Below, piece after piece: positions 16,727-35,064 of a stretch of DNA of 35,064 bases. How positions within the stretch are numbered: the first letter of the stretch is position 1; every line of letters starts with the position of its first letter. The DNA is from a virus. The translations under genes were made by a program, and so were the position numbers. The stretch covers positions 1-35,064 of the IMG/VR virus record IMGVR_UViG_3300032284_001640; one strand, 5' to 3'. The notes beneath the pieces are model-generated. The model ran no database searches, was not told the origin of the DNA, and saw nothing but the letters and a program-made list of their open reading frames with translations.

Positions 16727-17904
16727 TACGCATTGACTGCTTTTATGATTGAGAAATTCACCACGCAAGCCTCAGAACGCGAAGTTCCACTATAGTTGGT
16801 AACCCGGAATCGGCAACTGCCAGCGGCGACGGCTTGGCACTGCACTAGGTAGGTCGAGGCAGTCCCGCCAGGCCCCATGTTGCAGATGATGGTGTCAAAA
16901 GCGGCGATAAAGCTGTTGGTCAACACGAACTGAACTGACGCGCCTGCGGCCAGCGCGGCAGCGTTCATGGTGATAGCACCGCAACCCTTGTTAAGCGTCA
17001 CGCCTTGGCTCTTTGATGTGCTCTGAGTGACTGCGCCGCCAGGACTAGGGACAACTCCGCTTACCGGATGAGTTCCATACCCCAAAACACCATTAGTGCA
17101 TAGCGCGCCGGTAAACGCTTTTGAATCACTATTATCTGAAACATAGAATGCAAATGAAAAATTTACGCTACCGGTGTCCGTCCAAAATGCCCACGAATTG
17201 GTGACGGTCGCGTTGACACCAGAGACCATCCCTGACGAAACAAAAAACGTAATGCCATTCGTATATGTGACTGCCGTATTAGTCGATTCAATCGATACCG
17301 CGTAATAGTTATACGAAATTCCATAAGCGTTAATTGCGCCAACAAGACTTACCGTGTCTGTATAGACAAAATTGCCGCCAAGCAAGCACGTTGCATATCC
17401 GGGGTCTGGAACGGGGCCGCTAACGTTAGCCTGATTGGTTATAAATACTCTTGATTGATCAATCGTCAGCGCTGTTGTGGCTGAGCCCACAGACGGCGTG
17501 GTTTGAAACGTCATGCCCGCGTTTGACGCGATGTTTGTGGTTGAAAACGTCAAATTGCCAACAGCACCAGAAGTGAAAGTTCCGGTCGTCCCGCTGATTG
17601 GGCCAGTAAACGATGCGCTAACACCAGAAAGCGTAGAACCAAGTGTCATCGGCCCCGCAAAACTGGCCGTGCTGTTGGCCGTCATCGCCCCGTTAAACGT
17701 CGCCGCTCCGGCCGCTGTAATGGCTCCAGTGACGTTGAGGTTGGCCACCGTGACGTTGCCGCTAAAAACTGGCGTGGCGGTGTTGACCGCACTGGCGTTG
17801 ATGCCGGCGTTGCTGAACACCTGAGAGAAGAAAGCGACCCACGCAGGGGAAAGGTTTCTGCCGTCCTTCGTGATTTCCGTTGATGGAACCGGCGGGAAAC
17901 TCAC
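16726..17904 (-). CDS. Tail needle or fibre protein
   Basis: 392 aa, starting with GTG overlapping the previous stop (GTGA). The N terminus (PVPSTEITKDGRNLSPAWVA) is a virion-attachment type seen in phage fibres. Residues 50-150 are short beta repeats (GAITAAGAATFNGAMTAN, SFAGPMTLGSTLSG). The C-terminal domain (about 285-392: TQSTSKSQGVTLNKGCGAIT, SFIAAFDTIICNMG, VVNFSIIKAV) is a widely shared knob found on tail needles and fibres of phages. It is in the P22 gp26 position, so it may plug the tail tube. The section coding residues about 140-270 is AT-richer. Confidence 0.65.
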   Translation of the reverse strand: MSFPPVPSTEITKDGRNLSPAWVAFFSQVFSNAGINASAVNTATPVFSGNVTVANLNVTGAITAAGAATFNGAMTANSTASFAGPMTLGSTLSGVSASFTGPISGTTGTFTSGAVGNLTFSTTNIASNAGMTFQTTPSVGSATTALTIDQSRVFITNQANVSGPVPDPGYATCLLGGNFVYTDTVSLVGAINAYGISYNYYAVSIESTNTAVTYTNGITFFVSSGMVSGVNATVTNSWAFWTDTGSVNFSFAFYVSDNSDSKAFTGALCTNGVLGYGTHPVSGVVPSPGGAVTQSTSKSQGVTLNKGCGAITMNAAALAAGASVQFVLTNSFIAAFDTIICNMGPGGTASTYLVQCQAVAAGSCRFRVTNYSGTSRSEACVVNFSIIKAVNA

Positions 17905-19325
17905 TGTTGCCGCTCTGCCACCACCGCTGCGCCCTCGGTAATGACGAATTTAACCGGGTCGGTCATGCGGACACGAAACACGAAATCACGCGCCGAACCG
18001 AACCGCCGAGCCACCACCCGGGTTTTGTATTGGCCGATCGCGCCAACCGATAGTTGCCGTGGGTTGCTCCACGTCCTGCCGTTGTCCTTGGACGTTTCCA
18101 GCGTGACCACGGGATTGCTTCCCTGCCCTGATTGCAGGCCCACGCCGGTTTCCATGTCCAAGTAAAACTCAGCGACGGTGATCACGTTGAAATCTTGCGA
18201 GCCGTGGCGCGTAACCAGTTCGCGCACAATCGTCTGGCCGCCGTCCGTAAAGCTGTTTTCGTCGATGACGTAAACGTTGCCGCTGTTGTAGTCGGTAATG
18301 AGCGATTGATTCTGGTACGTCGTGCTGAGTTGCCCGGTGTGGCGCTGAGCGTAACCGGTCGGCACGCCGCTCTGAGTTTCAGACCAAATGCCAGACGACA
18401 GGTCGTACAGAAACGAACGGTTGGCCGTGGGGAACGTCAACTGGTACATCGGATGACCGTTGATGACGTACGTCAGTGCCGTAGCGTCAGAAACCGTCGA
18501 GAACCCAGAGATGATGTCTTCGAGGTCTGGCGTGCTGACCACCGCCACGGTATAGCCGCTGATTTGGCAAACCTGAGAAGTGCCTTGCGGGTTCTGCGCG
18601 AGGAACAACAGCGTGCTGCCGACGTGGCCGCGGCTATACACCGCGTTGATGCCATATTCAGAAGTGACCGACAGGATTGGTGCAAACGGCTGCGGGCTGC
18701 TGCCGACGTTCTGCCAGAACTCGGTGTGGCGCTCGCTGAAAACCACCAGATTGCCGGCCAGCGAATCCACGGCGAGGATGTTGTCCGAATACTGACTAGC
18801 AGCCGCAAATGACAACGCGTTCCACGAGGAACCATCAAACACGCCAGACGCAAAAAAGTTCTGCGTGCCGGGCTGTTCGCACACAAAATATCCGCCAACA
18901 AATGTCACGGTCTTGGCGCCGTTGGGAAATCCTGCGGCCGTGATTTTCGATAGCGTCGTCGTGGTGGTGTTAAACAAGTAACCCTTAGAACCATCGACGA
19001 TCACAATCTGCGTGGGGCTGCGCGCCATCGACACGTTGCCGAATGAACTCGCAATCGTGGCGCTGCTGTACAACGTGCTGCCGGTGCTGCTGAGCGAATA
19101 GAACGTGCCGCCGATGACCGCGTAAAGGTTCGATTCCGTGCCAAGGATTCCGCGCACCACGCCGGCCAAAGTGAACTTTAGCGTGAGCCCTGGCGTGCCA
19201 AATATCGCGACCTTCGACTTGTCGCCGTCTGGCCTGTTCTCCAGATAACAATTCAGTCGACGCTGACGCGTGACCGGAAACGAGTGCCCAGCGATGCCGT
19301 TCCCGAAGAGCGGATAAACTTTCAT
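17901..19325 (-). CDS. Packaged-DNA stabilisation protein, P22 gp10-like
   Basis: 474 aa, essentially the length of P22 gp10 (472 aa). It begins VYPLFGNGIAGHSFPVTRQR with RLNCYLENRPDG, typical of the Phage_stabilise family, and continues as a repeating beta structure with internal GxxxxVYSRGHVG and KDNGRTWSNPRQLSVG segments. It forms the hexameric tail hub that closes the portal after packaging and carries the spikes. It overlaps both neighbours (ATGA at its start; its own stop overlaps the GTG of the next gene), in P22 order. Confidence 0.88.
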   Translation of the reverse strand: MKVYPLFGNGIAGHSFPVTRQRRLNCYLENRPDGDKSKVAIFGTPGLTLKFTLAGVVRGILGTESNLYAVIGGTFYSLSSTGSTLYSSATIASSFGNVSMARSPTQIVIVDGSKGYLFNTTTTTLSKITAAGFPNGAKTVTFVGGYFVCEQPGTQNFFASGVFDGSSWNALSFAAASQYSDNILAVDSLAGNLVVFSERHTEFWQNVGSSPQPFAPILSVTSEYGINAVYSRGHVGSTLLFLAQNPQGTSQVCQISGYTVAVVSTPDLEDIISGFSTVSDATALTYVINGHPMYQLTFPTANRSFLYDLSSGIWSETQSGVPTGYAQRHTGQLSTTYQNQSLITDYNSGNVYVIDENSFTDGGQTIVRELVTRHGSQDFNVITVAEFYLDMETGVGLQSGQGSNPVVTLETSKDNGRTWSNPRQLSVGAIGQYKTRVVARRFGSARDFVFRVRMTDPVKFVITEGAAVVAERQQ

Positions 19326-20305
19326 GGCATGTACTGATTGGCTTGAAAGTAAATTTCGGTCATGTCTGGGTTCGACTCGCGAGCGTATGCCAGCGCCTCG
19401 GTGTAGTTGCTCTGCATCTCAGGCGTCCACACCGCGTTAAACATCGGGCAAATTTGCTTGCTAAGTCCCCAGCACAACGCGTTGAACCACTCCGCTGGAT
19501 ATTCCGGGTTGTCCAACGCCGCGTTGAAATCCTGAATCGGGCGCAGGTAAACGATGTGAATCGTCTTCGTCACGTCCTGCGCGCCGCCGACATCAATGTA
19601 CAGCTGGCCGTTGGTGAGCTGCGCCTCGTAGTAGATGGCCGTGGGGTCGCTTACGTAGCTGCTGGCCGTCTTGGTCGGCAACTGCTCGTAGGTCTGCACG
19701 GTCATCATGTCCAGCGGCGTATCGTTCTGCGTGATGTCGCGCAGGATGGCCGTCACGATTTCTAATGGGCGCTGGCCCTTGGTGGTGTAGTTCCAAACGT
19801 AGTTGCCAGCGGTCGCCGCACTGGGCAGAGCTGTGGCAATCGTGATGCTTGGCGAGCTGATGCTCGATACCGTGGTACTGAAGATGTCGCCGCTTCCGAG
19901 CTGCACCACCACGTAGTCGCCCACCGTAAAGTTTGCGGTGCTGCTGAACGTCAGCGTGGTGGCTGCGGCTGCCGCGTAACTGGCCAGCGTCTGCGTGGCG
20001 TAGTTGGCGCCTGCCACCTTGGTGACACCAGCTGCCCAGTTGTCGCCGGACGGCCCTAATGCGTACTGGTACTTGGTGGACGACAGGAACAGGTCGGCGC
20101 GCTGCCGGGTCCAGATTTTGAGCCCGGGCGCAAAGTCATAACGCCCCATCCACTGCTTCACCATCATGTTGAGCTTGCGCGAGCAGTCCGTGGTTTCCTG
20201 CGCGTCGATGCTGCCGTAGGCATCGAGCTTGCCGATGTTCAGCATGGCTTCCCGGATGATGTCGTCTCGCGTGACAGTGAACGCGTAGGTGCCGCTGGTG
20301 CTCAT
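19322..20305 (-). CDS. Head-to-tail adaptor, P22 gp4-like, with beta insertion
   Basis: 327 aa, about twice P22 gp4 (166 aa). The N terminus (TRDDIIREAMLNIGKLDAYG, LNMMVKQWMGRYDFAPGLKI) and the C terminus (PEYPAEWFNALCWGLSKQI) match the gp4 family, which forms the ring under the portal. The extra length is mostly a Ser/Thr/Ala-rich beta segment at about 105-170, a likely inserted domain. The ATG overlaps the previous stop (ATGA). Unlike P22 gp4, no lysozyme-like role can be argued from the sequence. Confidence 0.82.
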   Translation of the reverse strand: MSTSGTYAFTVTRDDIIREAMLNIGKLDAYGSIDAQETTDCSRKLNMMVKQWMGRYDFAPGLKIWTRQRADLFLSSTKYQYALGPSGDNWAAGVTKVAGANYATQTLASYAAAAATTLTFSSTANFTVGDYVVVQLGSGDIFSTTVSSISSPSITIATALPSAATAGNYVWNYTTKGQRPLEIVTAILRDITQNDTPLDMMTVQTYEQLPTKTASSYVSDPTAIYYEAQLTNGQLYIDVGGAQDVTKTIHIVYLRPIQDFNAALDNPEYPAEWFNALCWGLSKQICPMFNAVWTPEMQSNYTEALAYARESNPDMTEIYFQANQYMP

Positions 20306-21969
20306 GTCTGCAATGCCTTCCTGATGATTGGGGCGATCACATTGTATGCGTCGTCGGCCGTGATTTCAGCTTGACATTGGGCCACGCCCATCAGGTTGCC
20401 CTCGGCATCCTTGGCCTGCTGGCAGTTGCTCCAGTTGTAGTGCAGCTGATGACAGGCTGGCGCTTCGTTGTCGCCTCGTCCCGGACAGTGCGTGGCAAGA
20501 GCGGCCAGCGGTGTGGTGTTGTCCCAGTCTCTGGTGAGGTTCTCCGCGCTGCTGTGACTCAAGAACACCACTTTAGGCATCGGCTCGTGAGACACCGCGT
20601 TGAGCACGCCGGTTTCAGGCCCGACGACCATATCGGCCAGCAGAGTGAATGCCAGCGTTTGACGGATTTTCCATTCTCCGCACATTGGCCAGACGCGTGG
20701 CTCCGTTTTGATTTTCATGCCCTTGATGCGCTTTGGTTGACCAGTGGTTTCATCAGGCACAAACCATCCCTGCTCGAGGAGCACGCCGGCTTCAGAGCCG
20801 ACCATGACGACGTGAACGTCTGGGAACTCAATCATCAGGCGCGCGTAGACTTGGTCGATGTAGGGCCACGTTTTATGCACCGACGAGCCGGCCAGCGCCC
20901 AGACGATAACGAACTTGCCCATTTCTTCGCGCTGTTTCTTGGCCCATAAAGTTTCTTCTGGTAGCGCAAAAAACTTTACGGCAGGCCTGTGCTCAAGCTT
21001 GGCACAATCGTGCTGGAATTCGAGATAGTTCTGGTTGCACATCCGGTGGCGAACGGCCGGCGGTGTCTCGTACATGAACCGCCCAGGAATCGGCAGGAGC
21101 GTGCCTTCCGCGCTTTCGCTCAACTGGACCCACTTGTCAAACTTCTTGCGGTGATGGCCCCAGAACGCACCGAGGTGTTCATTCGGCACTTGGTTGACGT
21201 CCTGATAGTAGAAATCATCCACGTTGGGATCGTGCTTGATGACGTCGCAGCCCGGTGGCGAGCAGAACACCGTGACGTGATAGCCCTGCGTTTTGAGACC
21301 GGCAAACACACTGGAGGCCTGCAGGATGTCGCCATACGCACCGTAGCGCACCACGGCGGCCGTCTTCTCTGGCTTTGGCTTCTGATGGCTGTAGCGCCAC
21401 TGAAACGCCTTGTGCGCGCTCTTGGCGCGTTCTGGCATAGGTAGCTTCTCGAACACCGCGAACAAGCTGTATTCCATGCCTTCGTTGCGCTGCTCAAGCA
21501 CCCGGCAATCCCATGAACCCACTGGTCGCATGTAGGCCAGCAGGCGCTGTTCGTTCACGTTCCACTTATGGTCTGGATTCGCGTGCGGCTCTCCCACTTT
21601 GGGATACAAATCCTCATGCGGCAGGTAGAGCACCAGATAGCCGCCAACCTTCAGCACTCGCCACCACTCGCGCAAGGTTTCCTCTACCTTTTCCGGCGCG
21701 ATGTGTTCGAGCAGATGCGATGAGTAGACAGCGTCGTAGGCTTCTGAGCCGAACAGCCGCAGATTGCTGGCGTCCTCAATCCAAATGTCGGGCTTCATCT
21801 GGATTCCGAATAACTGCGAATCAACGCCGGAATCCAAGCCTATGAAATGGGGGAATCCTTTGTTAGGCCCGCAGCCGACATCGAGGACTCGGCCACGCGT
21901 CCAGCGTGGCAGTTCCCACACAATTTTCCCTGATTCGTTACCCTGCGGGTCTTCTGCTCTCCAAACCAT
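20302..21969 (-). CDS. Methyltransferase fused to heptosyltransferase-type GT9
   Basis: 555 aa, two enzymes in one chain. Residues 1-180: SAM-dependent methyltransferase with VLDVGCGPNKG (28-38), YDAVYSSHLLEHI (78-90) and VLKVGGYLVLYLP. Residues about 203-550: a GT-B glycosyltransferase like ADP-heptose:LPS heptosyltransferases, with RYGAYGDILQASSVFAGLKT (208-227), ALAGSSVHKTWPY (358-370) and VVGPETGVLNAVS (448-460, the nucleotide-sugar site). It probably transfers and methylates a sugar on an unknown acceptor: LPS, virion protein or DNA. A strong AGAGGAA site and a terminator precede it, so it may start a sub-operon. The gmhA-like gene could raise the sugar precursor supply. Confidence 0.85.
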   Translation of the reverse strand: MVWRAEDPQGNESGKIVWELPRWTRGRVLDVGCGPNKGFPHFIGLDSGVDSQLFGIQMKPDIWIEDASNLRLFGSEAYDAVYSSHLLEHIAPEKVEETLREWWRVLKVGGYLVLYLPHEDLYPKVGEPHANPDHKWNVNEQRLLAYMRPVGSWDCRVLEQRNEGMEYSLFAVFEKLPMPERAKSAHKAFQWRYSHQKPKPEKTAAVVRYGAYGDILQASSVFAGLKTQGYHVTVFCSPPGCDVIKHDPNVDDFYYQDVNQVPNEHLGAFWGHHRKKFDKWVQLSESAEGTLLPIPGRFMYETPPAVRHRMCNQNYLEFQHDCAKLEHRPAVKFFALPEETLWAKKQREEMGKFVIVWALAGSSVHKTWPYIDQVYARLMIEFPDVHVVMVGSEAGVLLEQGWFVPDETTGQPKRIKGMKIKTEPRVWPMCGEWKIRQTLAFTLLADMVVGPETGVLNAVSHEPMPKVVFLSHSSAENLTRDWDNTTPLAALATHCPGRGDNEAPACHQLHYNWSNCQQAKDAEGNLMGVAQCQAEITADDAYNVIAPIIRKALQT

Positions 21970-22061: not shown

Positions 22062-22247
22062 TCAGGTTTTAGACTTTCTCCGCTCCGGCGGTGCGTCTGG
22101 TGATGAGTCAAGCGATGTGTCAACCGGTGGGTCAAGTGGTTCGCCATTGGCTTTGAATATCACGCCGTCCTGCTCGTACCGGCCCTCGTATTGGCCGCCC
22201 GAATAAATGATGCCGTGCGGGCGGTCAGGGTCGAACTTTAATCCCAT
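22062..22247 (-). CDS. Small hypothetical virion-region protein
   Basis: 61 aa. A compact start (KFDPDRPHGIIYSGGQYEGR, YEQDGVIFKANGE) is followed by a Pro/Asp/Ser-rich charged tail. The start at 22247 has GGAA nearby and overlaps the previous gene by 10 bases. It is last before the internal terminator. The family is unknown; 'phage protein with Y-x-Q-D-G-x-x-F' patterns occur next to coat genes. Confidence 0.65.
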   Translation of the reverse strand: MGLKFDPDRPHGIIYSGGQYEGRYEQDGVIFKANGEPLDPPVDTSLDSSPDAPPERRKSKT

Positions 22248-22615
22248 AGCACGTTCCAAATTCCCGGCGTGCCGGACGTGACGACAGTCAATGCCCCAAT
22301 AAACTGAACGCCTGTACCGCCCGGCCCCGGGTTCGCTTGAAACCCGGTAGATGCTGCAGTCTGCGTGGCGTTCAGCGTGCTGGTTGTGGTTGTGGTGCCA
22401 GTGACTTTGATGTCGTACGGAGTCAAAGTCCACGTCGTTCCCGTGCTGATGCAATTAATGCCGTAGAAGACGCCAGGGCCGCCGTCAATGGTCGTCGTGC
22501 CGGCGGTGTTGACCACGGTGTAGTTTGCGCAACCCGGTGAGTAAACCAATCCGGTCGTCGGATCGATACCGCACATCCCAACGGGGACCGCATTTCCTGG
22601 AGGTGTTAATGGCAT
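22238..22615 (-). CDS. Hypothetical beta-rich virion-region protein
   Basis: 125 aa, rich in T, G, N and V (DPTTGLVYSPGCANYTVVNT, then IKVTGTTTTTSTLNATQT), probably all-beta, consistent with a minor structural or decoration protein. ATG at 22615 with AGG about ten bases upstream, three bases after the stop of the previous gene. The family is not recognised. Confidence 0.65.
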   Translation of the reverse strand: MPLTPPGNAVPVGMCGIDPTTGLVYSPGCANYTVVNTAGTTTIDGGPGVFYGINCISTGTTWTLTPYDIKVTGTTTTTSTLNATQTAASTGFQANPGPGGTGVQFIGALTVVTSGTPGIWNVLWD

Positions 22616-22618
22616 GGC

Positions 22619-23068
22619 TTACAACCTGTCCAAATAATTGTTGCGCTCAACGAAGCCACCGACATCGTCGTAAAACGCATCGTTGTGCTCACGGGTGTAT
22701 TCGTCGTCGGTTTGGAGCAACGATTTCTTGTGGAAACCGTGACGCAATGATTCGGCGCTCAACTCAAAGTTGGTCACGTCGCCCTGCGCTAAGTCGGTCG
22801 GAAAGTTGCCAGCAGTGTTCACGCCCATCTGGCGGATGTCGGCGTATTCCTGATCTTCAATATCCATCCCGGGCGGCAACGAATTAAAGAGCGCAGCGTT
22901 GTTCATTGCTTTGCTGTCGTTGTCACCGCCCGGCCTTCCTTCGCGACCAAGAGCGCCTTTCTTTGCGCGCATTTCGTAATCAGTTACCCAGCCATGTTCG
23001 TTCTCGGCTTTCGAGTTGTAGTCTTCACCAAAGGTGACCTGAAACTTTTCCTGAACGACTTTTGGCAT
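22619..23068 (-). CDS. Virion-region protein, duplicated family copy B
   Basis: 149 aa, polar and charged. It shares with the next gene upstream (23084-23566) the order MPK at the start and a conserved block in the middle: NSLPPGMDIEDQE (63-75), then DIRQM. Outside that block the two differ, with this copy ending in an acidic, aromatic tail (HNDAFYDDVGGFVERNNYLD). GGAG lies nine bases before the start. It is placed between coat/decoration and tail genes; a structural or assembly role is likely but unproven. Confidence 0.7.
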   Translation of the reverse strand: MPKVVQEKFQVTFGEDYNSKAENEHGWVTDYEMRAKKGALGREGRPGGDNDSKAMNNAALFNSLPPGMDIEDQEYADIRQMGVNTAGNFPTDLAQGDVTNFELSAESLRHGFHKKSLLQTDDEYTREHNDAFYDDVGGFVERNNYLDRL

Positions 23069-23083: not shown

Positions 23084-23566
23084 TTAGATTTTCGCGTTGC
23101 CCTTCTTGTTCGTCATTTCCTGACGGCCCATGTCGAGCGTATCAGGCATCTGCGAACCCTCAGAGCGAACCACCCAACCATCGCCAGGAAACGACAGGCC
23201 GCCTTCGTAGGCCACCATCTTCATTTCGCGAATGTCGGAGATTTCTTGATCTTCAATATCCATCCCCGGAGGCAGGCTGTTGTACAGCGCATTGACGCCG
23301 TACACCAAACCTTTCTTCGCGAGATAGCCATTGTCTTTCACGCCCACCATTTCGTTGCGCGCCATGAAAGCAGAGTCAGGCAGCACATCCACGTCAGCAA
23401 CTTCGGTATTCTTCATTTCGTGACGAGACTGGCCGCGAGCATTCGCAGACTTAATGACATCCTCCATATTCGGAGCCATGTCACCGTACATCTTCGTCGC
23501 GAGCTGGTCCGCAGTCACCTGCGGCGTCTCGTATTGTTTGCGGCCCTGCTGATTTATTTTCGGCAT
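23084..23566 (-). CDS. Virion-region protein, duplicated family copy A
   Basis: 160 aa, polar. It carries NSLPPGMDIEDQE (97-109) and DIREM, matching copy B, and internal repeats of the form R-x-E-M near 'RHEMKNTEVADVD', 'ARNEMVGVKD' and 'GRQEMTNKKG', suggesting a small repeated unit. GGAG precedes the start. It lies next to the putative decoration and coat genes. No database family is recognised by eye. Confidence 0.7.
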   Translation of the reverse strand: MPKINQQGRKQYETPQVTADQLATKMYGDMAPNMEDVIKSANARGQSRHEMKNTEVADVDVLPDSAFMARNEMVGVKDNGYLAKKGLVYGVNALYNSLPPGMDIEDQEISDIREMKMVAYEGGLSFPGDGWVVRSEGSQMPDTLDMGRQEMTNKKGNAKI

Positions 23567-23580
23567 TTCAATTACTCCGA

Positions 23581-24123
23581 TTAGGCGGTGAGGTTAGCGA
23601 GCGGCTGAACCTGCCAGTCCACAGTCAACACAGCGGCAGCGGTTGCATCCGTACCGCCCGTGATGGTGATGACGTCGCCCGGGTTGATGGCGGTTCCGTA
23701 CAGGCCGGCGGTGCCAGTCGAGCTGTTCAGCGCCTGCGTGTACCACGAACCCACCACGCCAGTGCTCGTGCCAGAGTTCACCGTCGAATAAATGTCCGGC
23801 GAGAATTGAGCCAGAGTGGCCGTGGCGAACGACGCAGCAGCACCAGCGGCAGCGGTGTTATAAACACGCGTCACGGTGTACTGGTTGTTGTTCGCGTGGA
23901 CGGTCAGCGTGTTAGAGCCGTTGTTGTAATACTGGGTCTTCGTGTATGTGGAGGTGCCGGCAGCCGTAAGGCCAACCGTCACCGCCATCAGCTGTAGCGT
24001 TGAGTGCGCCACAAACTTGGTGGTGCTGTTCGCGCCAGCGGCGACCGTAGCGATCCAAGTGCCACGAGCCAGATAGCTGGCGTGGTCGTAACCAAAGTTG
24101 GTTTGCGTGTTGTTAAGTGCCAT
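23581..24123 (-). CDS. Putative head decoration or structural protein
   Basis: 180 aa, rich in T, A, S, N and V, beta-type (e.g. LTAAGTSTYTKTQYYNNGSN, INPGDVITITGGTDATAA). It is the gene directly after the coat gene with only 12 bases between, a usual place for decoration proteins. GGAG lies ahead of the start. No motif confirms the assignment. Confidence 0.5.
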   Translation of the reverse strand: MALNNTQTNFGYDHASYLARGTWIATVAAGANSTTKFVAHSTLQLMAVTVGLTAAGTSTYTKTQYYNNGSNTLTVHANNNQYTVTRVYNTAAAGAAASFATATLAQFSPDIYSTVNSGTSTGVVGSWYTQALNSSTGTAGLYGTAINPGDVITITGGTDATAAAVLTVDWQVQPLANLTA

Positions 24124-24135
24124 GTGTGCTGCTCC

Positions 24136-25107
24136 TTAAGCCGCCGAGTCCCACTTCACGATACGAACGTTCGTAGCGAGAGTGTGGACGATGCCAAAAC
24201 CGCCGAGGTAGTACCACGCGATGCCTTTGCTTCTTCCGTAATCCGTGGGGATTTTCCCGCGCATTTCTTCAGGCACCGCGATGGCTTCCGCCACCGTGTC
24301 GTTGCCGAAGAAGAAGCACCAATCGCTCGCGCCAGCAGACCACGCAGTCGTGGTGATACCGTCCGTACCCGTGCCTTTTGCTACGGAAGTTTGCTCAATG
24401 AACCGTACGTTCTCGTAGCGCCCTATCTCACCGTTCATGATCAACGCGAAACCAGTGTCAGAATACTGATGGATGGTTTCAAGGTTGTTCTTAAGCGTGC
24501 GCAGCGTGGTCGGCCATGCAAGGCTGTAATAGTCGTCAGCGATGTAGGCCGGAATATTGCGTTCCTTCATCGTGTCAACAATGGCCTTGACGTGGCCGTT
24601 GTTGAGCGCCACCGAGTTGGTCAGCGTCGCCGTGCCGTTTGTGGTCAGCGTGACCGCCGTGGTGCTGGTGCCGGCAGTCGGAACCACGCGAAGCAGGGTC
24701 TGGTTAAACTGAGTCCAAGCAGCACGGTCAAGCCATTTGACGCAGTCGTTCTTCAAAACCTTTTTGATAACGTCTTCGATCGGGAACTTCGACAGGTTGT
24801 CGAGCTTGCCCGAGTACGGAATCGAGTTGCCGGCCTCGGTGATCGTCAACGTGCCCTGAACAATCGTAAAATTAGTTTCGGGCATCGTGTTGGTTTCAGT
24901 CAGCACCGAACCAGCGGTGGCGACGTCAGAGAACACGTCCCAAGTGAAAAGGTCGCCCTTCTTTTTGCCCTGCTGACTGATGTCATGCACGTCGGCAAAC
25001 TGACGGAACTTGACGAGCGGCTGCACGTTGGCGCGCAGCACGTTGGAAAGCTGGCGGCTGTACATATAGCCACCCAGCGAGTTAACAGCCCAAACCTGAC
25101 CAGCCAT
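24136..25107 (-). CDS. Major capsid protein
   Basis: 323 aa. Position after the scaffold gene, a perfect AGGAGG ribosome site and pattern all support a HK97-fold coat: an N-terminal arm (NSLGGYMYSRQLSNVLRANV), an E-loop-like stretch (about 45-95, KKGDLFTWDVFSDVATAGSV), a spine helix (FPIEDVIKKVLKNDCVKWLD), and a C-terminal PEEMRGKIPTDYGRSKGIAW then GIVHTLATNVRIVKWDS. This last block resembles N4-gp56-type and related podophage coats more than P22 gp5, which is 430 aa. It builds the icosahedral shell around the scaffold. Confidence 0.82.
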   Translation of the reverse strand: MAGQVWAVNSLGGYMYSRQLSNVLRANVQPLVKFRQFADVHDISQQGKKKGDLFTWDVFSDVATAGSVLTETNTMPETNFTIVQGTLTITEAGNSIPYSGKLDNLSKFPIEDVIKKVLKNDCVKWLDRAAWTQFNQTLLRVVPTAGTSTTAVTLTTNGTATLTNSVALNNGHVKAIVDTMKERNIPAYIADDYYSLAWPTTLRTLKNNLETIHQYSDTGFALIMNGEIGRYENVRFIEQTSVAKGTGTDGITTTAWSAGASDWCFFFGNDTVAEAIAVPEEMRGKIPTDYGRSKGIAWYYLGGFGIVHTLATNVRIVKWDSAA

Positions 25108-26339: not shown

Positions 26340-27226
26340 TTTTCACGCTCAACTTTGTTCAATTTCACTCCCGGCACCATTAAGTAACTTGTCCCATGTT
26401 CGTCAGACATTTCTACAGCATGAAATCCCAATTCTTTGGCGATTCTTCCTCTTAGCTTTTGAGCAATTAAAGCAGGGTCATCCAGTTTGGCATCCGAAAG
26501 ATTGGCCGATTCGGCATATTCGTTGCCTGATTCTTCAATAATTGCTTTCCAAGCGTCGTCAAAATTATCGTCGTTTTCTGTTATTCCGGTAATTTTCTGG
26601 AATGCTTTTTTGGTTTTTTCATAGGGGATTTCATAGTTCAAATCGTAGTGCGTCAAAATTTTGTGTTCTGGAATGTCGGCGTAATAATTGAATCCAGACC
26701 CATGAGACTTTGCGGATTGCAAATCTGCGGAACCAAAAAAACCATCGAAAGAACCTCCTTTCGGAACTTCAGAAAACTCACCATGACCGCCATGGTACAA
26801 ACGAACCATGCTGGGAACTTTCTTTTCTGTTGCCAAAACGGCAGACCCAATTCCTTTTACGGCGCCGGCCGCTTTGGATGCTGCACCAGCTCCTTTTGCT
26901 ACGACGCCTAAAGGCAATGCACCTGCCATATCCAGCGCTGCAGGCTTTATTAATTGTCTTCCTGCTCGAGTATCTGCAAGCACATAAGGCTCCCCTTCCG
27001 CCATGCGTTGCGCGGCTTCTGGTGCCTGACCCAATAAGAAATGGCTTACCGCCTGACCATATGGGTTGCTGGCGGGGAACAGATTTTTAACCGCTTGCAA
27101 ATACGGGGACACAGCTTGCCCGAATTGCATGGATAACGTTGGCGGAACGCTGGATGCGTAACCGTCAGCTTGGCTTTGTTGGGCCCACGCGTTTTTTAAC
27201 GTTAATCCGTTTTGCTCGTCCGTCAC
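26336..27226 (-). CDS. ADP-ribosyltransferase-like protein in the head gene cluster
   Basis: 296 aa, beginning with GTG inside the portal stop (GTGA). The N-terminal half has an Ala/Gly-rich, mildly hydrophobic stretch (about 96-132), like other injected proteins. The C-terminal half (about 140-292) shows the phage polyvalent-type ART layout: VRLYHGGHGEFSEV (141-154, H145), DGFFGSADLQSA (161-172) and LGFHAVEMSDEHGTSYLMVP (266-285) with an acidic residue before the final strand. If active, it would transfer ADP-ribose from NAD to a target protein. The 3' half is distinctly AT-rich compared with portal and scaffold. Packaged and injected use is inferred; an inactive structural role is possible. 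Confidence 0.6.
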   Translation of the reverse strand: MTDEQNGLTLKNAWAQQSQADGYASSVPPTLSMQFGQAVSPYLQAVKNLFPASNPYGQAVSHFLLGQAPEAAQRMAEGEPYVLADTRAGRQLIKPAALDMAGALPLGVVAKGAGAASKAAGAVKGIGSAVLATEKKVPSMVRLYHGGHGEFSEVPKGGSFDGFFGSADLQSAKSHGSGFNYYADIPEHKILTHYDLNYEIPYEKTKKAFQKITGITENDDNFDDAWKAIIEESGNEYAESANLSDAKLDDPALIAQKLRGRIAKELGFHAVEMSDEHGTSYLMVPGVKLNKVEREK

Positions 27227-29403
27227 CGTTGCATGGCTCCAAGCTGTTCAGCACCCGGCAAACCTTGCCCTGGCATTGCCTGCGCCGGAGTCTGCGGACG
27301 TGGCACCGGACCAGCGGGTGCAGCGCCCGGTTGCTGCTGCATCGCCTTCTGCGCCGCCGACGATTCGAGCATGTCTTTCTGCGCAAGATGCTTGGCGTAG
27401 AGTTGAAGGTTCTGGTGCGTGTCTTCCTTGTCGGCCAGCAGGAGTTTGACGATGTTGTCCTGCCGGTTGGTTTCCAGTTTGACTTGATTGGCTTCGCTCT
27501 TGTCCTTGCGCTCCTGCATCAGTTTCTGAATGGCCTGCATCAGTTGCTGATTCTGCTGCTGGAGTTTGATGACCTCGGGGTCATTGCCGATGGTGAACCT
27601 CTCGCCATCCTGATAACCAGACAGCGCCGCAATTTCTTTCCAGACTTCCGACAAATTCATGCCCGGCGGTGGTCGGGAGGCGACGGCCGCGAACGAGTTG
27701 ATGCCGGCGAGGAACTTTTGCATCTTGGTCACCGGGTCGGTGTTGCCCATGCCGACGTTCACGTTGACGACCATTTCCTTTTCAAGCAGGTCGTCCGTCA
27801 CTTTGTCCATGCCAGCCTTCTGGAATTGCTTCGATTTCTGGCCAGCCAGATTCAAAATGTTCTGGTCGGTTTCGTAGTGCTGCTCGAGTAGAACCAACTG
27901 GCGCAGGATGGGCACTACAAAGGTTTCTGAGTACGTCATCAGTGCGTACTCGGTCAGCATGTTGGCCGGTGCCTGAAGCAGCGTCATGGCTCTGGCAGGC
28001 TCACGTGGTGACCTTGCGGTTTGCACGCTCGCGCTGCTGAAGTTCCCAACCAGCTCGTCGAAGTTTGCGGTATTGCGGTCTTCCTCGAGGTACGCACTCT
28101 GCGTCACGTCCTGCCACTGATTCTCGACCACGTCGGCAGTCGGGTCGTCCATGAGAACAACGCGCCCGGGAACGTTGCGCACCAGTGCCGGTAGGTCAAC
28201 ATTCTTCCCGCGCTTGGCGAAGTAGCCCTTATTGAGCACGAACTTCACGTTATCCAACCGCTGGTTTTTGATTTCGTTTATCTCTTCCTGCAGGTCCTTC
28301 ACAAGATTGGGCAGCGGCTGCGCCATTGGCTTGTGCGTCTCGATCATCATCGAGCCCATCACGTACGGCCGGCGCCCATGAAACACCGTCATTTCCAGCG
28401 GCTCTGGGTCGGTCAACATTCGTTCGCTGCGCAGAGTGAGGAACTCGTAGTCGGTGCCGTCCCAGCGATGGATGTGCCGATGCACGAACACGATGTCGTA
28501 ATCCGACACAGATCGCCGCTCAAGCGCTGGGTCCTGCTGATTGCCCACGCGCGTGCGTCGCGTCGAGTCGTCTGCACCGTCGGCCACCAGCGCGCTGTCT
28601 GGATAGGATTTCCACTGCCGGCCCTTGGGGTCTGGGCGTGCCATGCGGGCCTTCACGTCAACCGCAAACATCGGAATGACGTGAATCAGGTAGGGCGAGG
28701 AATTGATGGGGTCTGTCCAGTTGGCAGACGGGTCGAACCTGAAATTTTCGATGGGCACCAAGTCCACGCACGGTTTGTCTTCGTGGCGAACCAACTTACC
28801 TTTGGCGTCTCGTTTCATCGAATAACGCCAGTAAACATGCGCCACGGATGCGCCCTGAATCTGCGCATCCTGCATACCGCCCAGGACAATCTGAAACCAC
28901 GGAATAGACTTCGTGAGCCGGTATTGCAGAAGCTGCTGCATCACGTCTGCCGACACACGCTCCTGCTGGTCGTTCTGGTTCTGCGCACTGACGCTGATGC
29001 GGTCGAGATTGGAGAAGAACGCCGCGGCCGCAGCGGCCTCATTCTTGCGCACGATGGCCCGGGTCTTCGGGACGAACAGGTGCGAGCGCTTCTTGAAGAT
29101 TTCCGAATTGTACTTGCTGTCGCCCGGATGCTGGTTGTTGAACGCCCGAATGGAATCGTCCCATAGCCGGCGATAGTTCGAATCGACGAACGACGTTGAG
29201 AACCGCCACGCGTCTTTGGCTCTGCGCGTCCAGTTGGGCTGGTCGGTCTCGTATTCGAACTCTTCTTCTTCGGTGTCGTACTGCTCAGGCTCGGCACCGC
29301 CGTCGTCCATGTTCTCGCTGCCGAGCAACCACAGCGGTGCGTCGCCAGATTTCGGGTCTTGGATGCTGGGCGGCTGCGGACGGGACTGCGTGCTCTCGCT
29401 CAT
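27223..29403 (-). CDS. Portal protein, P22 type
   Basis: 726 aa, the same size as P22 gp1 (725 aa). It forms the dodecameric ring through which DNA enters and leaves. The core is seen from about 55 (NWTRRAKDAWRFSTSFVDSN) to 620, with the stem/clip region PNLVKDLQEEINEIKNQRLD (about 360-380) and a wing region before it. The C terminus (about 625-726) is a long Gln/Lys-rich helix then Pro/Gln-rich tail, matching the barrel helix of P22-type portals. ATG at 29403 overlaps the preceding stop (ATGA). Confidence 0.9.
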   Translation of the reverse strand: MSESTQSRPQPPSIQDPKSGDAPLWLLGSENMDDGGAEPEQYDTEEEEFEYETDQPNWTRRAKDAWRFSTSFVDSNYRRLWDDSIRAFNNQHPGDSKYNSEIFKKRSHLFVPKTRAIVRKNEAAAAAAFFSNLDRISVSAQNQNDQQERVSADVMQQLLQYRLTKSIPWFQIVLGGMQDAQIQGASVAHVYWRYSMKRDAKGKLVRHEDKPCVDLVPIENFRFDPSANWTDPINSSPYLIHVIPMFAVDVKARMARPDPKGRQWKSYPDSALVADGADDSTRRTRVGNQQDPALERRSVSDYDIVFVHRHIHRWDGTDYEFLTLRSERMLTDPEPLEMTVFHGRRPYVMGSMMIETHKPMAQPLPNLVKDLQEEINEIKNQRLDNVKFVLNKGYFAKRGKNVDLPALVRNVPGRVVLMDDPTADVVENQWQDVTQSAYLEEDRNTANFDELVGNFSSASVQTARSPREPARAMTLLQAPANMLTEYALMTYSETFVVPILRQLVLLEQHYETDQNILNLAGQKSKQFQKAGMDKVTDDLLEKEMVVNVNVGMGNTDPVTKMQKFLAGINSFAAVASRPPPGMNLSEVWKEIAALSGYQDGERFTIGNDPEVIKLQQQNQQLMQAIQKLMQERKDKSEANQVKLETNRQDNIVKLLLADKEDTHQNLQLYAKHLAQKDMLESSAAQKAMQQQPGAAPAGPVPRPQTPAQAMPGQGLPGAEQLGAMQR

Positions 29404-31949: not shown

Positions 31950-33578
31950 TCAACTGTACTCCGGTTCCATGATGTCGCTGTCGATGTACTCAGGCGCTCG
32001 AGGATCCATGTCGTAAATTCGGCTGACCGCGTCGATCAAGTCCTTGAGCCCGCAAAATGGATAATACGCCACCTGCATCTTGAAACGCTCACTGAGGTTG
32101 TACAACTGGCCGTTTTCGTCCCGGTACACGATTGGCCGCGCCAACCGGTAATCGTAACCCTGCGCAATCATCCGCTGCTGTTGAGCGCTCATGTCGGGCT
32201 CGTCGTCTGCCGGCTCTCTTGGCAGATGGAACGCATGATTTCGGATGTCCGGCAGCAACCGCTGCACTCGGTCATCTTTTGACCCCGGGCTGTCGTGAGG
32301 CCATTCTAGCGGGTCTATGCTCAGTCCTTGGACGTTCTCCGTGCGGATGCGCTCCTCGAAATAGTCCATATCGGCAATCGCGCCGAACCGCTCGTATCCG
32401 ACCTTTATGCCGATGATGCCCGGCGCCACGCGCCATTTGCGCCACAGGTCTCGCATGTGCGTCCAGCGCTCAAGCAAATCCATCTTGTGATCGTAGCCAT
32501 CGAGAAGGTATTTGTTGCCTTGGAAGTCAATTCCCACCACGGCCATGGCGGTGTTGGCCGAGCCCTTTTTCTTGCTGCGTGCCGGGTCGACCATCAGGTA
32601 GCACATCAACGTCTCAGGCCGAGCCTCGTACGTCTGCAGGTCATCCGGGTTGAACCAGCGCTGCGTCCCTGCCAGCGGGTTCTGCAGCATCTGGCAAGCA
32701 ATCGTGGCCTCCAGCTGCGTGCGCAGACGACGCTCCCATTCTTCCTCGTTGAACAGTACCGGCCGACCGTCCTTGGTGCCGTCGTCCGTGGCTGGATGGA
32801 TTCTCGGCTTGATGCCGGTGGACATGATGTGAGCATAGGTGTCGGCGAAGTTGTACCGGGTGCCGATGTGCCAGAAGCGACCGCCGGCCACGCCCAGGTT
32901 GTCGGACATACTCCAGGCTTCCGTGGTCTTCTGAATCTGTTCTGGCGTGCTCACCGATTCCATGGTGACGACGTCGTCGTACACGCGCAGCTGGAAGTGC
33001 CTCGATGTCGGCTGGCCATCCACCAGCCCGTGCGCCTCGATGGTCATTTCTTTTGGGTTGCTCTGGCGCTTGACCACGATGCCAGAGTCCAGCGACCACA
33101 CTGGCGCCTCTTTCTGCGGGTTCGCCCAGAGGACATCAGGGAAGAGGGTTTTAAGAAGTTCGTTGCCTTCGAACTCGCGCTTGATTTGAGCCAAGAAGGC
33201 TTTGGCGATGGGCTTGGTGTGCGAGAACAGGCCCACCGTAATTTCCGGGTCTTTCAGGATTTCCTGAACGATGCCGCCGAACGTGATGATGCTGGATTTA
33301 TAGTGCTCACGCGCCCAGAGGTCTAGGTAGCCATCCGGGTGGGCCTCGACTTCGCGGCAGCGGGCGAACAGCCACGGGTGCCAGACGTCAGTGCGGCCGA
33401 GGAGTTTGACCAGAAGATAGTAACGGTCAACGGTCGCCAGCCAGCGCATTGCGGCATGGTCTTGGCCTTTGCCGTCCAGTGCATCCCAGACGGCAAGCAG
33501 GCTACTGAATGGTGCGCTCTGTAACTGGTGCTCGACCTGCAAGAGCGCCGGCGAGTTTGTCTGCGAGTTGCTCTGCAT
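31950..33578 (-). CDS. terL: Terminase large subunit
   Basis: 542 aa. ATPase half: Walker A-like AREHYKSS (89-96), Walker B LRVYDD (197-202). Nuclease half (RNase H fold): MVDPARSKKKGSANTAM (329-345, D331), a second acidic region near GIKVGYERFG (390-399, E396) and LKDLIDAVSR (511-520, D513 and D516). It drives DNA into the prohead through the portal and cuts it. The start at 33578 overlaps the previous gene by 77 bases, which is long; a shorter N terminus without an ATG cannot be excluded. One base separates its stop from the next start. Confidence 0.93.
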   Translation of the reverse strand: MQSNSQTNSPALLQVEHQLQSAPFSSLLAVWDALDGKGQDHAAMRWLATVDRYYLLVKLLGRTDVWHPWLFARCREVEAHPDGYLDLWAREHYKSSIITFGGIVQEILKDPEITVGLFSHTKPIAKAFLAQIKREFEGNELLKTLFPDVLWANPQKEAPVWSLDSGIVVKRQSNPKEMTIEAHGLVDGQPTSRHFQLRVYDDVVTMESVSTPEQIQKTTEAWSMSDNLGVAGGRFWHIGTRYNFADTYAHIMSTGIKPRIHPATDDGTKDGRPVLFNEEEWERRLRTQLEATIACQMLQNPLAGTQRWFNPDDLQTYEARPETLMCYLMVDPARSKKKGSANTAMAVVGIDFQGNKYLLDGYDHKMDLLERWTHMRDLWRKWRVAPGIIGIKVGYERFGAIADMDYFEERIRTENVQGLSIDPLEWPHDSPGSKDDRVQRLLPDIRNHAFHLPREPADDEPDMSAQQQRMIAQGYDYRLARPIVYRDENGQLYNLSERFKMQVAYYPFCGLKDLIDAVSRIYDMDPRAPEYIDSDIMEPEYS

Positions 33579-34941: not shown

Positions 34942-35064
34942 GAGATCTAGATCTAGATCTTACTCTTAACCCCTGATCCATGTTCGAGCGTTCAGAATAC
35001 AGCCCCCCCTACCCCCCCAACGTATGGGAGAGAGGAAGGCCTGATCCACATCCCGATGCGACGA
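34942..35064. repeat. Terminal direct repeat, right copy
   Basis: Exact second copy of bases 1-123. The base before it (34941) is A. When the map is closed here, the leftward operon ending with the gmhA-like gene (189) is followed by a 262-base non-coding stretch (34927-34941 joined to 1-188, about 203 bases counting the shared segment once) and then by the first gene of the virion operon, which starts at 34926. Confidence 0.95.

Follow-up and report, generated by a model that had tools for sequence, protein, structure and literature searches.

Phage glycosyltransferases, the glycosylation of virions and viral heptose enzymes are each already known (PMC12619734, PMC11461863). In mycobacteriophages, phage-encoded glycosyltransferases modify virion proteins (Freeman et al. 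2023, as cited in PMC12619734). An isomerase, a kinase and a nucleotidyltransferase of the ADP-heptose pathway have been reported from viruses (Tang et al. 2024, as reviewed in PMC11461863); that review describes the phosphatase of the pathway as absent in viruses, and asks what purpose the viral nucleotide-heptose product serves. The autotransporter heptosyltransferases (BAHT) TibC and Aah place heptose on protein (PMC4358343). Heptose-pathway genes are also found as the HldE-like genes of large cyanophages and as the phosphoheptose isomerase gene of Caulobacter phage Cr30; these differ from the case described here in belonging to large genomes, and no relative of the fusion protein described below was found in INPHARED.

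The stretch of viral DNA analysed here (the window, 35,064 nucleotides) bears two identical copies of a 123-bp terminal direct repeat, at 1-123 and 34942-35064, and the genome, of 34,941 bp, is circularly complete. On its reverse strand a single open reading frame exactly fills positions 20302-21969 and encodes a protein of 555 amino acids; it begins with ATG, preceded by the ribosome site AGAGGA, and ends in the tetranucleotide ATGA, where its stop codon overlaps the start codon of the following gene, which encodes a probable head-completion adaptor. The sequence-only reading of the window held that a GT9 heptosyltransferase-type domain and a SAM methyltransferase are joined in this one chain, that the gene lies inside the virion operon, and that the same genome carries a heptose isomerase. 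All three statements are borne out, the first by the agreement of profile, fold and conserved residues, the others by the gene order and the isomerase gene set out below.

The class I SAM methyltransferase domain occupies residues ~7-178 (21436-21951, reverse strand) and matches PF08241 (Methyltransf_11) with E = 3e-9; the same family was found in the N-terminal half of all 15 members tested. The GT9 domain, of GT-B fold, occupies residues ~199-555 (20305-21375, reverse strand). The window protein on its own gave no GT9 match in Pfam, PHROGs or NCBIfam, and a sequence-profile search of the PDB returned methyltransferases only and no glycosyltransferase structure, so that the GT9 assignment relied on the family alignment and the predicted structure. 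Glyco_transf_9 (PF01075) matches five of 15 relatives (best 2e-4), and hhalign comparison of the fusion family with ten cellular GT9s, taken from three bacterial genomes that carry fusion relatives, gave a probability of 98.8 and E = 1e-16 over residues 200-550. In an AlphaFold2 model of mean pLDDT 77.6, with low values at residues 34-61, the GT9 half matched 3tov (Z 24.1), WaaF (22.9), TibC (20.2) and WaaC (19.8), while GT-B folds outside GT9 reached only Z ~14, well below the GT9 structures. The methyltransferase half matched 3dli (Z 13.3) and RebM (Z 12.7), and the latter is a sugar O-methyltransferase, a match that is not decisive for a sugar as methyl acceptor. By sequence and model, the C-terminal half is likely to have GT9 activity.

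An alignment of 122 complete fusion rows, representing 91 distinct sequences in all of which both halves lie in one frame, shows the two active sites to be conserved. In the methyltransferase, motif I (DxGxG) retains D30 in 119 of the 122 rows and G32 and G34 in every one, and the acidic residue D46 is invariant. In the GT9 half the catalytic D214, which aligns with the Asp of the cellular GT9 IGD motif, and the phosphate-site K366 are both invariant in 122/122; of the four C-lobe cysteines (495, 506, 516 and 532), three are invariant and the fourth is missing from a single row. The ratio dN/dS against the closest relatives is ~0.08 across the gene as a whole and is low in the two halves taken separately, and both domains are under purifying selection. 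This conservation argues against the reading to which we give the least credence, that the gene is a mobile moron without glycan function or encodes an inactive virion component; it has in its favour only that viable isolated relatives go without the fusion, which is therefore not needed for assembly in general.

The GT9 half shares with the LPS heptosyltransferases WaaC and WaaF the GT9 fold, the domain order, a catalytic Asp in the first loop, the phosphate-site Lys and a C-terminal Cys cluster; it is unlike them in its N-terminal methyltransferase, in a Glu for Asp in the D[TS]G motif, and in being encoded in a phage head operon. With TibC and Aah (PMC4358343) it shares a GT-B/GT9-like fold (Z 20), the catalytic Asp and four conserved C-lobe cysteines, but a methyltransferase stands where those enzymes have an N-terminal beta-barrel, and the Cys spacing differs. 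A TibC-like iron finger was considered, but identity as a BAHT is not claimed, since ordinary GT9s share the CxPC...C...C cluster. The Cys 495/506/516/532 region of the model is of low pLDDT and has a spacing other than that of the BAHT iron finger. The substitution in the D[TS]G motif is the one marked departure, with E452 present in 122/122 fusions where cellular GT9s have a near-invariant Asp. The change is conservative, and this Asp is usual in GT9 without strictly defining it, so that the assignment to the fold family is untouched; its invariance does mean that donor specificity may differ, and it weighs against specificity for heptose.

The heptose isomerase gene lies on the reverse strand at 189-896, with a probable ATG start at 794, and encodes a gmhA-like sedoheptulose-7-phosphate isomerase (SIS_2). 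In NCBIfam its product matches GmhA at 1e-53 against 3e-35 for DiaA, the GmhA match of 182 bits lying under the NCBI curated cut-off of 276 bits. In alignments to 1tk9 and 2x3y it keeps the GmhA metal and catalytic residues, which we take to be His, Glu, Gln and His. Across the circular junction, which a relative (L246) spans, the gene lies upstream of that for the terminase large subunit (31950-33578, reverse strand; phrog_38, 9e-38), and it is ~14 kb from the fusion gene, on the same strand. No hldA, gmhB or hldC was found in the window, where gmhA is the only ADP-heptose gene; given the terminal repeat and the relative that reads over the junction, the genome is complete and the absence of the other genes is real. 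Beside gmhA and rusA there is also a GNAT acetyltransferase gene (1277-1876), the product of which could be a further sugar-tailoring enzyme.

Co-occurrence of gmhA and GT9 genes across related phages had been suggested as a check on the heptose proposal. Among 52 records of the lineage, sampled by similarity and related to one another, 40 carry the fusion or the glycosyltransferase, and ADP-heptose genes occur in 15 of these 40 and in none of the 12 that lack the glycosyltransferase (Fisher p 0.011, a value that ignores kinship and sampling). Two records, G071 and G072 (L243, L244), have genes for GmhA, HldA kinase, GmhB-type phosphatase and HldC nucleotidyltransferase side by side; six have three ADP-heptose genes each (G007, G008, G016, G026, G031 and G074), five have two each (G004, G015, G022, G024 and G025), and in the window and G001 gmhA stands alone. 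In several records the heptose genes are found close upstream of the terminase gene, on the same strand and in operon-like order. The STT motif region of the phage HldC proteins is mixed for the fifth-position Arg and was not used as evidence. These genomes resemble those described in PMC11461863 in that isomerase, kinase and nucleotidyltransferase of the pathway are virus-encoded; they differ in the GmhB-type phosphatase gene of two records, and in the presence of a GT9 as likely consumer in the same genomes.

The association is partial, since 25 of the 40 glycosyltransferase-bearing records, some of them 47-62 kb in length, have no heptose gene, and gmhA is thus accessory to the fusion and not its obligate partner. 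Together with E452, these 25 records favour a reading in which a GT9-fold enzyme modifies virion proteins with a sugar drawn from some other nucleotide sugar, the heptose genes having another purpose or a role in some members only. Against this, heptose genes are confined to records with the glycosyltransferase and lie near the terminase in operon-like order, and we judge it decidedly unlikely that the sugar is something other than heptose. Heptose as the donor is supported, though not proven.

DNA can serve as a substrate of phage GT-B enzymes, and it might be supposed that this one glycosylates and methylates the bases of phage DNA as a defence against restriction. G071 and G072 do have a thymidylate-synthase-like gene, a candidate source of a modified base, close to their heptose genes, but such a gene is present in only four of the 40 glycosyltransferase-bearing records and is lacking from the complete genome of the window, and a place in the head operon does not point to DNA. 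This reading appears very improbable.

The head operon itself runs on the reverse strand. After the terminase gene come a gene in the portal position (27223-29403), a match to the head-tail adaptor family phrog_332 that occupies the portal position in relatives; the major capsid protein gene (24136-25107; phrog_1357, 2e-21; PF13252, 4e-6); a gene for a Thr-rich head-module protein of 180 amino acids (23581-24123; 18.3% Thr); and two tandem paralogous head-module genes (22619-23068 and 23084-23566), which are kept across the lineage and belong to no known family. A second Thr-rich protein (22238-22615; 125 amino acids, 21.6% Thr), apparently a small beta-sandwich, gave only weak beta-sandwich matches in a fold search, phage cement proteins among them, and is a candidate surface protein and acceptor. 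Just upstream of the fusion lies a conserved gene for 61 amino acids (FDPDRPHGIIYSGG...YEQDGVIF...GEPLD; 22062-22247), look-alikes of which also occur in phages without the fusion. Downstream, the probable head-completion adaptor (19322-20305; phrog_12985, 7e-20, with a weak match to phrog_637 Ad3) stands where Vibrio phage 1.232.O has its annotated Ad3 gene, and is followed by a head-closure Hc3 / P22 gp10-like protein (17901-19325; phrog_578, 3e-96).

This location, with capsid-side genes before the fusion and the adaptor and Hc3 genes after it, is kept across the podophage loci that cover the site (~100, all uncultured). The divergence of the fusion tracks that of the capsid protein (Mantel r 0.74, p 0.001) and of Hc3 (r 0.86), from which it follows that, for the most part, fusion and head module have been passed on together. 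The stretch that separates the fusion from the head genes in relatives also encodes TylF-type O-methyltransferases (E as low as 1e-16), GT2 glycosyltransferases (E as low as 4e-22) and an FkbM methyltransferase, as well as large fibre-like proteins that belong to no known family. Judged by these family matches, the stretch is a glycan site at which putative sugar-tailoring enzymes gather amid head genes; the variation of GT2 and TylF enzymes here would also suit a sugar other than heptose. Large variable proteins encoded among the head genes of two contigs (L014:6980-9679 and L015:8078-9703) show, by eye, SGNH-hydrolase-like stretches; the first has no Pfam or PHROG match and the second no PHROG match, and it is possible that they are head fibres.

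Gene position bears on the main rival to a virion target, namely that late in infection methylated heptose is placed on the inner-core LPS of the host and so keeps progeny from re-adsorbing or blocks superinfection. The characterised GT9 enzymes are for the most part LPS heptosyltransferases, and both WaaC and WaaF rank high among the structure matches of the GT9 half. The related isolate HelliStehle requires O-antigen as its receptor (PMC11990801), so that LPS matters to this lineage. However, the gene is not part of an early or lysogenic module: it is embedded in the head operon, where its stop codon overlaps the head gene that follows, two unrelated types of phage have it next to the capsid gene, and the site that it occupies collects sugar-tailoring enzymes amid head genes. 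Modification of LPS is accordingly considered unlikely, if less so than a change of sugar. Of the three targets that the sequence-only reading had listed, then, a virion protein is favoured by position, LPS is possible and DNA is weakly disfavoured; its broader notion of a heptose glycosylation system holds as far as ADP-heptose genes accompany the glycosyltransferase, twice as a full pathway, and is weakened by the records without them and by E452.

We put at about an even chance the proposal that the fusion is a late-expressed bifunctional enzyme that attaches heptose to a phage head protein and O-methylates that sugar. Late in infection, the GT9 half would take the sugar from ADP-heptose and transfer it to the head protein, and the methyltransferase half would use SAM to O-methylate the transferred heptose. 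ADP-heptose would come from the host, which would supply those steps of the pathway that the window genome does not encode, and the phage GmhA would boost the supply by committing sedoheptulose-7-phosphate to the pathway. From the location of the gene, the acceptor may be the capsid protein or one of the Thr-rich proteins encoded at 22238-22615 and 23581-24123. Virions that carried methylated heptose might be shielded, or their adsorption altered. The likeness to the mycobacteriophage system, as far as PMC12619734 presents it, lies in the phage-encoded glycosyltransferases and in virion acceptors, shown there and proposed here; the present case differs in that relatives of the fusion occur in Gram-negative bacteria, and in its proposed GT9/heptose chemistry and one-chain methyltransferase.

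Genomes that encode ADP-heptose pathway enzymes, two of them all four, thus also hold a conserved candidate consumer in the head operon. A literature search found no description of a methyltransferase-GT9 fusion or of its constant position in the head operon across a large uncultured lineage, nor of such a fusion meeting a full ADP-heptose set or of a GmhB-type phosphatase gene in phages. If heptosylation of the virion is correct, it would provide a function for viral heptose-biosynthesis genes, and would add phages of Gram-negative bacteria to those with glycosylated virions, along with a new sugar and a new enzyme architecture. The animal immune protein ALPK1 detects ADP-heptose, and it may be speculated that phage heptose chemistry could affect the recognition of particles or of infected bacteria.

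Relatives of the fusion are encoded in 384 IMG/VR stretches, while tblastn searches of INPHARED with the fusion and with a form consisting of the glycosyltransferase only gave no match. The isolated cousins PTXU04, HelliStehle Bas95 and Vibrio phages 1.232.O and 219E41, with ~50% capsid identity, have the same gene order without the fusion, which is therefore accessory to assembly. Bacterial assemblies with relatives include Paraburkholderia rhynchosiae, Polaromonas, Gallionellaceae, Sulfuricaulis and Geobacteraceae; the locus L032, from Paraburkholderia rhynchosiae WSM 3937, resembles a provirus. Two loci from bacterial assemblies, L035 and L036, belong to an unrelated long-tailed lineage with lambda-type portal and terminase (and, in L036, a tape measure), and in both the fusion comes immediately after the protease-capsid gene (phrog_617, E ~1e-110). 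It is tempting to suggest that capsid heptosylation by a one-chain enzyme is common to the podophage lineage and, by transfer, to this long-tailed one, with some members making their own ADP-heptose; to this wider proposal we would assign somewhat less than an even chance.

The glycosyltransferase occurs alone, without the methyltransferase half, in contigs L132, L155, L158, L178 and L180. These forms make up one clade nested among the fusions in a tree whose root is unsure, and a history in which an original glycosyltransferase later gained the methyltransferase was for these reasons not adopted. In G071 the two enzymes are encoded by separate neighbouring reading frames ~0.6 kb apart; an intron was considered and dismissed, as the gap gave no Rfam match and holds small reading frames. 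The adjacency of the separated halves fits two enzymes acting in one process. At L203:4813-7035 the fusion is split into two reading frames, with ~0.6 kb of small reading frames between them.
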